Source: Synechococcales cyanobacterium GL140_1_metabat_312
GTDB lineage: Bacteria > Cyanobacteriota > Cyanobacteriia > Leptolyngbyales > Leptolyngbyaceae
Length of the DNA stretch: 64,000 bases
Direction of reading: 5' to 3'
Assembly: GCA_025351345.1 (NCBI GenBank)
Contig: JANXWB010000008.1
Location: 1 to 64,000, forward strand
Shown here: one piece after another, positions 22,414 through 26,757 of the stretch
How positions within the stretch are numbered: the stretch's first letter is position 1
Layout of the letters: each line of letters begins with the position of its first letter
The notes under the pieces: generated by a model
What the model saw: the letters and a program-made list of their open reading frames with translations, nothing else
Databases searched by the model: none
Told to the model about the DNA's origin: nothing
Translations under genes and position numbers: made by a program

Positions 22414-22653
22414 TCAAATAAACCGACGTTGGAATCGATCGTCTATCCGATCGCGTTTGCTGGAGTTGCAGCTTTGGCAGAGGGTTTGGAGATTACTGAT
22501 GTCGTTGCTGCCACCTTGGTTAAGGGAAACAATGTGGTCTATGGTGAGATTTTTGTGGGTGCCGCAGCTTTGGCAGGTGTGGTTATCGCGATCGAGAACG
22601 TATTGACGGACTACGATCGGGATTTTGCCCCGTAGAGTTTTATCGGGTTTCAT
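22414..22653 (-). CDS. Small HNH endonuclease
   Basis: A 79-residue HNH nuclease. The signature reads CQSCGTHKNLTIDHIVSLNQGG...NLQTLCQSCNSSK, with two CXXC zinc pairs, the DH of the beta-beta-alpha metal site, and the Asn and final Lys-rich helix. The frame extends 41 codons upstream, but that part is rich in Pro/Ser and overlaps the start of the divergent Uma2 gene, so ATG at 22653 is taken. Such single-domain HNH proteins are frequent and scattered in cyanobacterial genomes; function is usually unknown. Confidence 0.85.
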   Translation of the reverse strand: MKPDKTLRGKIPIVVRQYVLDRDNHTCQSCGTHKNLTIDHIVSLNQGGSNDISNLQTLCQSCNSSKRDRIDDRFQRRFI

Positions 22654-22718
22654 GGGAAGTCGAAATTGATGTGTGTGTATAATTGGAGTTGAAGCAATAG
22701 TCGGGAGGGCGATGGGCG

Positions 22719-23309
22719 ATGGCATTGACCAAGGCGAGATTTGAAAGCTTTGAAACGTATCTAGCGGCTGAGCCATCAGATTTGCCGGAAGCTCGTTGTG
22801 AATATTGGAATGAAGAATTGATTCCGGTTATGTCTGAGTCTATTGGTAATGATACGATCGCAAATTTTATTTTTTTGGCATTACTTGCGATCGGTTTACC
22901 GTTTAAACTCATCCGACCTGGCAGCATAGAAATTGTCGTTAATGGAAAACCTCGGACTCGATTCCCCGATTTAACAGTGTTGGAGGAGATTCATTTAACT
23001 CTTCTCAAACGCCGTGCGACGATTAGTCAAGATATGCCTGCGCCTAGGATGGTTTTAGAAGTTGTTTCTCCTGGTGATGAGAAATCTGATAATTACAGAC
23101 GAGATTATCAAGAGAAATTATATCAGTATGCCGACCGGGGAATTCCTGAGTATTGGATTATTGATCCCGGTCGGGAATGGATAATGGTTGGATGTTTGAT
23201 TCAAGGAGAATATCAATTTAATACTTTTCGGGGTAACGATACTATTGTTTCTCCGACATTTCCTGAATTCATATTGACGACCGCAGAAGTCTTGGAAGCT
23301 GGACGGTAA
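22719..23309 (+). CDS. Uma2 family (DUF820) putative endonuclease
   Basis: A 196-residue protein of the Uma2 family, hugely expanded in cyanobacteria, with a PD-(D/E)XK-like fold. The putative catalytic core is FPDLTVLEE (Asp) followed by MVLEVVSPGDEKSDNYRRDYQEKLYQYADRGIPEYWIIDP, where E of LEVVS and the Lys of EK are the usual acidic/basic pair. A nuclease role has been proposed for the family but the physiological task is not known. Monocistronic. Confidence 0.88.
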   Translation: MALTKARFESFETYLAAEPSDLPEARCEYWNEELIPVMSESIGNDTIANFIFLALLAIGLPFKLIRPGSIEIVVNGKPRTRFPDLTVLEEIHLTLLKRRATISQDMPAPRMVLEVVSPGDEKSDNYRRDYQEKLYQYADRGIPEYWIIDPGREWIMVGCLIQGEYQFNTFRGNDTIVSPTFPEFILTTAEVLEAGR

Positions 23310-23314
23310 GCTTT

Positions 23315-23662
23315 TCATGAGTTTTCACGAAAGGTGTCGAGGGAAGGTTCGATCGGCTGATTTGAAGGATTCTCGCCTTCTCCCTCTAGAATGAATTCGG
23401 CAACTACTCTAAGTCTTAAACGACCCTTTTTCCAAACTGATCCAGGCTCTAGTATCTGACTAGGAAATCCTTCATCAAGCCATTGCTCATGATCGTTTTC
23501 ATCAGACAATACCATACGTTTTACTAAACCTCTATGAAAGTCATATGAAAAACTAGTTGCGTATGTTCTGACTATTTCATCCACCGTATCATTTGTTATT
23601 CCCACTTTACCTAGTAGAACTATGGCATCGTTTGGTATTTCTGAGAAGTTATCTTCATTCAT
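23315..23662 (-). CDS. KGK-domain protein, single domain
   Basis: A 115-residue protein resembling the KGK family, a cyanobacterial family of unknown function named after a Lys-Gly-Lys motif. Seen here: a helical N-terminal part (VDEIVRTYA), WLDEGFPSQILEPGSVWKKGRLRLRVVAEFILE, which is the family core (acidic/Gly turn, Cys or Gln position, then W-x-K-G-x). The third Lys is replaced by Arg (KKGR). It is the last gene in a same-strand run behind a second KGK protein (29-base gap) and a dynamin-like GTPase. No membrane segment or signal peptide. Confidence 0.6.
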   Translation of the reverse strand: MNEDNFSEIPNDAIVLLGKVGITNDTVDEIVRTYATSFSYDFHRGLVKRMVLSDENDHEQWLDEGFPSQILEPGSVWKKGRLRLRVVAEFILEGEGENPSNQPIEPSLDTFRENS

Positions 23663-23691
23663 ATTCTTAGTCCAAGCTTTTGTATATTGAA

Positions 23692-24360
23692 TTAATGGGC
23701 TTCGATCGCATTTCTAATATCGTCTAAGGATGATTCCGATAGAGGCTCAGAATCTTGGATGTCATCAGGTTGATATCCAACTTCTAGATAAACTGTTCCT
23801 TTACTCCAACCCTTTGATAAGCCAGGAAAGGAAACTCTACAAGGGATACCGTAATCTAACCAGGCATACCTATACGAATTCATGTCTGTCAACGATAAAC
23901 GTTGCCTTAGATGTGTCACTAATTCTTTTTGGGTAAACATAGTTCTACCCATACCCAAAAGTGTGGTTGCTGCTGCTAGTTGATGTTGTTCCTCCATAGC
24001 TTCTAAAGGAATACGTATTACACATTCTTCATCAATACTGATCCGACCACTATCTGAAGAACCAATCAGTTGTTCCTGAGAATCAGATTGATGGCATGAA
24101 AAGATAAATTTTATTGAAATGTCACCTCTCACCCAATTTGTAGAGTTTTTTACCGAGTCTAAAATCATACAATCTACGCCTTCTCCAAACCAGTCAACTT
24201 CTGGCGATTCGGGATGAGTAAACTTTTCCCGTAGCCAATTGTAGAGATTGGCAACTGTAACTACTTTATACCGACTACTTATCTCATGCTGTTGAGTAAG
24301 AAATTCTACGACTGCACTATTGGGCAAGATAATGTCTTGGCCTTCCATGATTGACTCCAT
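23692..24360 (-). CDS. KGK-domain protein, two tandem domains
   Basis: A 222-residue protein that I read as two KGK-type units. The first has YNWLREKFTHP...WFGEGVDCMILDSVKNSTNWVRGDISIKFIFS (about 40-90). The second has LRQRLSLTDMNSYRYAWLDYGIPCRVSFPGLSKGWSKGTVYLEVGYQPDD (about 150-205). Both contain G(V/I)(D/P)C followed by a W-x-(R/K)-G core; the spacing is equal, so it looks like an internal duplication. The Lys of the motif is degenerate in the first unit. Function unknown. It lies 63 bases downstream of the dynamin-like gene and 29 bases upstream of the single-domain KGK gene, all on the minus strand. A second in-frame ATG lies four codons in. Confidence 0.6.
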   Translation of the reverse strand: MESIMEGQDIILPNSAVVEFLTQQHEISSRYKVVTVANLYNWLREKFTHPESPEVDWFGEGVDCMILDSVKNSTNWVRGDISIKFIFSCHQSDSQEQLIGSSDSGRISIDEECVIRIPLEAMEEQHQLAAATTLLGMGRTMFTQKELVTHLRQRLSLTDMNSYRYAWLDYGIPCRVSFPGLSKGWSKGTVYLEVGYQPDDIQDSEPLSESSLDDIRNAIEAH

Positions 24361-24423
24361 ATTGATGTATTTACAATTTCTGGTCTTCTAGTTATCTGAT
24401 CTGATGAATTTTTCACATCTTTT

Positions 24424-26757
24424 TTATTGCCCTATTTTCATAAAATCCTCCCCACCGATCGCCCCAATCCGATCGATCGCCCCCTCAAAAACTACAATCT
24501 TCTCTTCAATTTCTGCCAATAACTGATCTCGTTGTAACACCTGTTCTTCAGCCTCCCGCCGCAAAACATCACCCAAAAACGATCGCGCCTCATCATATCG
24601 ATCGGGAATTGAAATCACCAACAATTTCGATCGTTCCAACAAGATTGAATTCAATGTTTGATTAATCGTTTGTCTAAACGTTCGTAATACCGTTATTTTT
24701 ACCTTTTGTTCAAAATCCAACTTCAACAACTGACGAATCGCAGGTTCCGCCGCCACCATATTGGAATAATCATATCCACGACAAGCCTGCGCCATCGTTT
24801 CACGCAATTGAAAAATCGAAGTTGTCCCCTCCGCAAAAAAGCTTTCACATTCCCGCACATACCGATCGCACTCCACCCGCGCCGCATTCACCAACGCCAA
24901 AGTCGCCAACTCCTTACCCTGCAACAACAAAGCCGCAATCCCACCATCATGACCCAAAAGTCGATTCATCTCTTGATAATAACTTTGTTGCGAAATCCGA
25001 TCGTTCAACTGTTCAAAAAATCCATTCACCAATTCCCGCGAAGCCTCAACTAAGGTATCTTCCAGCCCATTGGCCAAATAGTAAAATGCCTCCGCCAAAA
25101 TCCCCAACAACGGCACCACAGAATTTCGTGAATGACTTCCCTGCGCCCGTTCATGCACCATCCCCACCGAAAACTCCGCCACCAGCTCATCTAAGCGTAT
25201 GACCAATTGTCCTTGAAGCCGTCGAAACTGAGATTCAAACGCCTCATTTCTTCCACTCGCCACCACCTGATTCAGTTCATCCTCAATATGCAATTGCAAT
25301 TCCTGAGCCACCTTCTGCAACATCACCCCTAATTTCTGCAATCCCTGTTCCCGCAAAAGTTCCACATCCGTCGGCTGCGATCGTAATTCTGATGCCCGCT
25401 CCAAATAAACCCGTCGCAATGCCAACGCGATCGGACGCAAATCCGACATAACATTGGACAATAATAACGGACGCTTTTCCTCAGTTAAATAGCGCGTGAT
25501 TCCCGATCGAAATGCCTCAATCCCACTATCAGCAATCAATTGATCAATCAGCGGCCTACCTTCAGAACCCAAAATTCGAGTATAGTTCTCCGACGCACTT
25601 TCATAACTTCGCACATCAATCCGAAAGCGATCGATCGGCAACCGTCCCGAACTTGCACAATACCGATTGAACTCATTCACAAATTGCGGTATTGCCTCCC
25701 CCGCAAAAATCGAATCTAAACCAAAGCGATCGTTCAATCCCGTCGTCCGAACTTGCCCACCATAAAAACCCAGCAAACCACTCGTCTTATAAACCCGCGC
25801 CGTATCTCGAAACTGACTCGCAATCAATCGCGTCAATCGATCGGCCAATTGTCCGTTATACCAACTCTCATCCACCCGATTAAATACATAAAAAACCCGA
25901 TCGCGAATTCCAGGATTATGCTTTGTCTTCTCCAACAACTCCGTCTCTTCCGTCGTCAAATCCCCCGCCGAAGCCGTTTTTAATACACAAACTACCGCCG
26001 CAGTATCCGGGTCCGTAATCTTCGCATAGGTCAACGCCGCATCTCGCTTTACTGGCGCATCAATTCCCGGCGTATCCACCAACACATTTCCATCTTGCAA
26101 TAAAGGATGATGACAATAATATTCCACCCGCTTCAGCACCGCACTGTTCGTCCCTCTTCGTGCATAGTTCGCCGCCTCCTGCAAATTGGCAAAATTAAAC
26201 TCCTCCATTGCCATCGTCCGATTCTCTTTCGGATCAATATGCACTTGATTATCCATCCAGCCTTGCAATAGATATTTCAGCGCTGTCGCCTGTTTTGCCC
26301 GATCGGACTTACTCTCCCCGCCCTCTTCCGCAATCACCCGATCGCACGCCGTTTGAGTTTTTGGAATAGCCGACAAATCAATGTGCTGATTCTCTCCAAA
26401 CAACCGATCCGACAAAACGCCCATCTGTTCCTGAATCTCCACCCCCGACAAAAACGTCAGCACCACGCGCTCTTGTCCTACCGCTGCATAGGCAACCCGA
26501 CATTCCGTCCCCGTCGCATGACCTTCCGCACTGTAAAGCAATTCCCGCTCCAGCAATGCATTAATCAACATCGACTTCCCAGCACTAAACGCCCCGGCAA
26601 ACACAATTTCAAAGGTCGGAGCCGTCGCCTTCTTCAACGAATCTCGAATCGCCCCTAGTTCGATCGCCCCCAAACTCGGCTCTTCATTCAACAACTGCAA
26701 AACCTGCTCTACAGATTGCTGCAAACCCGTCCAAGCCGATACAGAAGAAATCGCCAT
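24424..26757 (-). CDS. Bacterial dynamin-like GTPase
   Basis: A 777-residue dynamin-superfamily protein. The GTPase domain shows G1 GAFSAGKS (55-62), G2 Thr in GTECRVAY, G3 DTPGIDAP and G4 NRVD. A long helical stalk (about 400-750) follows with a hydrophobic/alanine-rich stretch (VVPLLGILAEAFYYLANGLEDTLVEA) that could act as a paddle for membrane contact. Bacterial dynamin-like proteins remodel or protect membranes, and some act in phage defence. Its coding strand is strongly G-rich, unlike the two KGK genes behind it. It may head an operon with them; no terminator lies in the 63-base gap. Specific role unknown. Confidence 0.85.
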   Translation of the reverse strand: MAISSVSAWTGLQQSVEQVLQLLNEEPSLGAIELGAIRDSLKKATAPTFEIVFAGAFSAGKSMLINALLERELLYSAEGHATGTECRVAYAAVGQERVVLTFLSGVEIQEQMGVLSDRLFGENQHIDLSAIPKTQTACDRVIAEEGGESKSDRAKQATALKYLLQGWMDNQVHIDPKENRTMAMEEFNFANLQEAANYARRGTNSAVLKRVEYYCHHPLLQDGNVLVDTPGIDAPVKRDAALTYAKITDPDTAAVVCVLKTASAGDLTTEETELLEKTKHNPGIRDRVFYVFNRVDESWYNGQLADRLTRLIASQFRDTARVYKTSGLLGFYGGQVRTTGLNDRFGLDSIFAGEAIPQFVNEFNRYCASSGRLPIDRFRIDVRSYESASENYTRILGSEGRPLIDQLIADSGIEAFRSGITRYLTEEKRPLLLSNVMSDLRPIALALRRVYLERASELRSQPTDVELLREQGLQKLGVMLQKVAQELQLHIEDELNQVVASGRNEAFESQFRRLQGQLVIRLDELVAEFSVGMVHERAQGSHSRNSVVPLLGILAEAFYYLANGLEDTLVEASRELVNGFFEQLNDRISQQSYYQEMNRLLGHDGGIAALLLQGKELATLALVNAARVECDRYVRECESFFAEGTTSIFQLRETMAQACRGYDYSNMVAAEPAIRQLLKLDFEQKVKITVLRTFRQTINQTLNSILLERSKLLVISIPDRYDEARSFLGDVLRREAEEQVLQRDQLLAEIEEKIVVFEGAIDRIGAIGGEDFMKIGQ

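Follow-up and report, generated by a model that had tools for sequence, protein, structure and literature searches.

Recurrent association of a cyanobacterial dynamin-like protein with KGK-domain proteins and a small HNH nuclease

Genes of the locus

The window, a stretch of 64,000 nucleotides of a contig from Synechococcales cyanobacterium GL140_1_metabat_312, possesses three minus-strand genes placed in line. A dynamin-like GTPase of 777 aa (DLP, 24424..26757) is followed by a two-domain KGK protein of 222 aa (23692..24360) and a single-domain KGK protein of 115 aa (23315..23662). The arrangement given in the original prediction, with the ORFs separated by 63 and 29 bases, was confirmed along with its family assignments; the GTPase matched the dynamin family (Dynamin_N, E 4e-16) and both small proteins matched KGK (E 1e-11), the 222-aa protein with two PF08872 stretches. 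The PF08872 scores of the two proteins were 45.6 and 45.5 bits against a Pfam gathering score of 25.6 bits, and the N-terminal KGK copy of the 222-aa protein is weak (19 bits). ORFs with two KGK domains were also found in the Pseudanabaena loci L085 and L129. No terminator-like site was found between the DLP gene and the two KGK genes; such a site is situated where the upstream peptidase gene ends.

Residues 11-763 of the window DLP matched PDB 7zw6 (SynDLP/Slr0869 of Synechocystis) with E 1.7e-246 in phmmer, and on sequence grounds the GTPase is an ortholog of this structurally solved cyanobacterial dynamin. Its GTPase motifs are intact (P-loop 55-GAFSAGKS-62, DTPG 228-231 and NRVD 293-296) and its stalk loop reads HSRN (542-545). 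Both cysteines of the BSE disulfide (C8 and C777 in SynDLP) are missing. This pair is reported as conserved in the KGK clade of dynamins and forms no part of the clade definition. A first set of relatives, in which 29 of 29 had the cysteines, made the loss look unique to the window; this idea was dropped after a wider count, where both residues were present in 70 of 82 named DLP relatives. The loss is thus minor and recurrent, and the published clade-wide conservation is true of most members, not all.

On the far side of the KGK genes lie an HNH gene (22414-22776, minus strand) and a Uma2-family gene (22719-23309, plus strand), which had been described as a restriction-like neighbourhood. Both are real genes, and no methyltransferase was found among the flanking proteins scanned, so membership in a restriction-modification system is not indicated there. 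The likely start of the HNH frame is not 22776 but the ATG at 22653, which opens the sequence MKPDKT, and the corresponding ORF of congener G297 begins at MKPDKT. With this start, the small HNH nuclease gene, the third member of the cassette, spans 22414..22653 on the minus strand (HNH_5, E 9e-16). The Uma2 gene (22719..23309, assigned by Pfam domain match) lies on the opposite strand between the KGK and HNH genes. As a module member it was rejected, being shared at the same place only with congeners G297 and G298 and showing no recurrence in neighbour clustering; it is an intervening gene outside the conserved module. The HNH gene of this neighbourhood is a conserved module member. The PADLOC candidate model PDC-S03 matches the Uma2 gene (E 5e-50). 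The nearest neighbours of the nuclease are an unannotated protein and ABC transporter genes.

The window DLP is a diverged copy, positioned on a long branch of the DLP tree (0.58). In the other three genomes of the genus, DLP is absent or present as a fragment only, and two of the three, G297 and G298, retain the HNH gene, the Uma2 gene and the end of a KGK gene with the DLP body missing. Because these remnants are spread over separate draft contigs, a clean empty site is not demonstrable. Beside the leftover KGK end and HNH of G297, a D12-class-like DNA methyltransferase (G297:C230:5878-6753; L297 / L182) and further likely restriction genes were read from the ORFs. Split, stopped or fragmentary DLP copies were seen in genomes G005, G103, G245, G237 and G070, a hint that the module has been lost repeatedly, with assembly breaks possible for some. 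No open frame long enough for a DLP-KGK fusion was found, the longest being 868 aa.

Recurrence, composition and inheritance of the arrangement

Recurrence was analyzed in 80 named DLP loci from genome contigs. A KGK profile was rebuilt from the loci and KGK was counted in the 68 loci whose downstream sequence extends 1.5 kb or more; 43 of them have a same-strand KGK gene within 1.7 kb downstream of DLP. Of all KGK matches, 97 lie on the DLP strand and 0 on the opposite strand, with one upstream. This one belongs to L099 (Chroococcidiopsidaceae), the only locus with such a placement, which shows the order KGK-DLP-KGK-HNH-KGK. Loci without KGK revealed a recurrent, distinct HNH subfamily of about 80 aa, to which the window HNH belongs. 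It was counted within 3.5 kb in the 64 loci that have 2.5 kb or more of downstream sequence, and a same-strand downstream HNH was present in 49 of the 64, with none on the opposite strand. Among these 64 loci, 38 have KGK and HNH, 11 HNH only, 3 KGK only and 12 neither.

When 924 neighbour ORFs of the 80 loci were clustered all against all without supervision, the same partners emerged. Besides DLP itself (80 loci), the HNH cluster covers 50 loci (50/50 same strand and downstream) and the KGK cluster 46 loci (80/80 same strand, 79/80 downstream), and the next-largest neighbour cluster reaches 10 loci only. Both partners were found at one DLP locus in 21 of the 23 listed families, counting the unassigned group ('?') as one. 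The module has its genes on one strand in the order of a SynDLP-type dynamin, one to five KGK copies and then a small HNH nuclease. The predicted pairing of KGK with dynamin in unrelated cyanobacteria (43/68 loci, 21 families) extends well beyond close relatives. Two different DLP-KGK-HNH cassettes on two contigs were seen in one genome record, that of Phormidium tenue FACHB-886 (L077, L081), and DnaK/DnaJ type genes are present upstream of DLP in 9 named loci, which recalls the published chaperone clade.

It had also been proposed from base composition that the GTPase and KGK genes joined recently. The difference itself is real, with 48% GC in DLP and 39% in KGK. However, DLP also exceeds KGK in GC content in all of the other loci compared (43/43), by 6.9 points on average, and such a systematic offset gives no sign of recent joining. 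A chance or recent assembly of unrelated genes, for which the composition of the window is the argument, is refuted by an arrangement recurring in 21 cyanobacterial families and is considered extremely improbable.

The DLP tree largely follows taxonomy, with Nostocales as one clade, and DLP inheritance is largely vertical. Phages, plasmids and viral contigs yielded no relative of DLP, and a mobile or phage origin was rejected on this basis. The HNH matches from viral contigs are of a generic kind, with an identity of at most 65% across short stretches and of about 50% across longer ones. These results bear on an anti-phage role, in which DLP would sense or seal a phage-damaged membrane, the KGK proteins would be variable sensors and the HNH nuclease would cut phage or host DNA. 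Such a role is consistent with the known action of bacterial dynamins in defence, the weak matches of Eleos/Leo models to the G domain, the match of HNH cores to defence nucleases in PADLOC, the fast evolution and variable copy number of KGK, and the patchy presence of DLP within families (4/42 genomes in the window's own) with broken copies elsewhere. Against it, the module in the window has ABC transporters and further housekeeping genes on its flanks, the neighbour clustering of the 80 loci shows no recurrent defence gene, and neither the mostly taxonomic DLP tree nor the absence of DLP relatives from phages, plasmids and viral contigs favours it. A defence island was rejected for the window from its transporter flanks, and anti-phage defence is regarded as unlikely. 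The first idea of a membrane-remodelling or defence unit is therefore retained in its recurrent dynamin-KGK unit, while its defence part finds no support in the genomic context.

The HNH nuclease and the KGK proteins

To follow the HNH subfamily beyond the DLP loci, a model (A2) was built from 12 HNH proteins and searched in 292 genomes of the phylum. A sharp score gap separated 63 genomes with one HNH match of at least 117 bits from the remainder at 100 bits or less, and the subfamily is usually single-copy per genome. The window HNH lies above the gap (G000:C10:22417-22644, minus strand, 129 bits, E 2.6e-37). The catalytic and zinc residues are kept in 54-56 of 56 copies. For DLP, fragments and broken copies were counted and weak matches below 80 bits were left out. 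With set membership typed from tables, both genes were present in 61 genomes, DLP only in 12, HNH only in 2 and neither in 217 (Fisher p 6e-48), which places the subfamily in 61 of 73 DLP genomes and in 2 of 219 others. Stratification by family, a coarse correction for descent, gave a CMH p of 8e-11. Within the window's family (42 genomes), HNH was found in 4 of 4 DLP genomes, one of them with a DLP fragment only, and in 1 of 38 others.

Inspection of coordinates showed DLP and HNH within 5 kb on one strand in 44 of the 61 co-occurring genomes. In the other 17 the HNH gene is away from DLP, and in G078, G131, G097, G253 and G237 the distant gene is still situated behind a KGK. Co-occurrence even when unlinked points to a functional tie and argues against simple hitch-hiking. 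Alternatively, only DLP and KGK might make up the membrane module, and the HNH, a small nuclease of the stand-alone or homing type, might have become fixed alongside as a passenger. In favour of this, HNH genes are common in cyanobacteria and the published account names KGK only (PMC5827413). Against it, this subfamily is mostly single-copy and set apart by a sharp score gap (at least 117 versus at most 100 bits), lies on the same strand and downstream in 50/50 clustered loci and is nearly confined to DLP genomes, unlinked cases included. A passenger HNH is accordingly judged quite unlikely. Neither partner is strictly required, since both are missing in 12 of 64 loci and HNH is missing in 12 of 73 DLP genomes.

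KGK proteins of the cassettes carry a conserved C-terminal (S)PLD[DE][LI]R tail which unlinked KGK proteins lack. LDx[LI]R is present within the last 35 residues in 69 of 92 cassette KGK ORFs and in none of the about 17 unlinked KGKs examined. In a 78-row KGK alignment R112 is invariant and L108 and D109 are conserved in at least 90%. In the window, the 222-aa protein shows the motif as LDDIR (23713..23727, minus strand) and the 115-aa protein as the form LDTFR (23327..23341, minus strand), the ending PSLDTFRENS being common to the latter and congener G298 (L154). The cassette KGKs diverge quickly. Their median best-pair identity is 42%, compared with 65% for DLP and 67% for HNH, and KGK identity is below DLP identity in 200 of 200 pairs.

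The tail forms a helix (residues 130-140) in the AF2 model of the KGK protein of L103 (pLDDT 79.6); the model of the 115-aa window protein is poor (pLDDT 70). A PDB search gave no sequence relative of KGK, and Foldseek gave no PDB fold with E below 0.001 (best 1.9), so the function of KGK is unreadable from structure. Within the window's family, KGK matches were obtained in 41 of 42 genomes, and most of these have no DLP; KGK therefore also exists outside the module. Unlinked KGK proteins of about 120-157 aa without the LDxIR tail (L003 at G000:C44:17649+, and L155-L168) look like a separate, near-universal KGK gene.

Possible function and relation to known systems

Cyanobacterial dynamins were earlier sorted by sequence and context, and a KGK clade was named in which a KGK gene typically lies downstream (Jilly et al. 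2018, PMC5827413). SynDLP was placed in this clade and its structure solved (Gewehr et al. 2023, PMC10104851). The DLP-KGK combination, taken as undescribed in the original prediction, is thus already published (PMC5827413, PMC10104851). The HNH partner is unmentioned in the main texts of both papers, and as far as the main texts of these open-access papers go, the HNH as third module member is new.

SynDLP binds and remodels membranes, forms oligomers unprompted and has high basal GTPase activity, and its authors consider accessory proteins a likely in-vivo brake on oligomerisation and futile GTP hydrolysis (PMC10104851). The KGK proteins may be the accessory proteins which restrain this self-assembling, constitutively GTP-hydrolysing DLP; alternatively they may direct it to a membrane site. 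The variable KGK domain would make contact with a target that changes, and the PLD[DE][LI]R helix, which is constant, would dock on a constant partner, DLP or HNH. Our best guess is that the KGK proteins link DLP to the HNH nuclease, which may act on DNA within this shared process, being turned on by membrane or salt stress. In a Synechocystis lexA mutant, slr0868-slr0871 rise together 6 to 16 fold (PMC4759255), which would fit a common module if slr0870 and slr0871 are KGK or HNH genes. The expression profile of this mutant was likened to salt stress by its authors (PMC4759255), and expression of slr0869 is lowered in two triple sigma-factor mutants (PMC8875361). In vitro, SynDLP assembles into oligomers and remodels membranes with no KGK present (PMC10104851), which counts against this explanation, as do the divergence of the window copy (branch 0.58) and its missing BSE disulfide.

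Taken with these points, we favor with middling confidence the explanation that the window holds one copy of an ancient, chromosomal, cyanobacteria-specific DLP-KGK-HNH module in which KGK regulates DLP and HNH is a DNA-acting partner. More tentatively, dynamin, KGK and HNH could be one undescribed system, a GTPase coupled to a DNA nuclease by fast-evolving adaptors with a docking helix. The conserved nuclease partner would imply a DNA- or stress-related role, unforeseen from thylakoid remodelling alone, and the missing DLP regulators now have named, testable candidates in the KGK proteins and their constant tail.

Among known systems, the BDLP of Nostoc punctiforme is likewise a cyanobacterial dynamin. 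It belongs to the Tandem A/B clade, with a dynamin neighbour instead of KGK (PMC5827413), and was not retrieved by the window DLP in the PDB search. The Eleos (LeoA/LeoBC) anti-phage dynamins share the dynamin-type G domain, and the PADLOC Leo models match weakly and in the G-domain region of the window DLP only (17-71 and 37-234). The window DLP has no full-length Leo match and no second dynamin adjoining it, which separates it from Eleos, and KGK and HNH stand in place of the Leo pair. Stand-alone HNH endonucleases (PDB 5h0m, HNH of IscB/McrA) have the same zinc-bound DHI...N...CxxC core; unlike them, the cassette HNH is a separate cyanobacterial subfamily of about 80 aa tied to the DLP module. 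Closest is the KGK clade with SynDLP, in which the window locus belongs by its relationship to SynDLP over the full-length sequence, its GTPase motifs and its same-strand downstream KGK genes. The window DLP differs from SynDLP in having no C8-C777 type disulfide and in HSRN for HPRN in the stalk loop, and the locus differs from the clade as published in its two KGK genes, one of them double, and in the added HNH partner.
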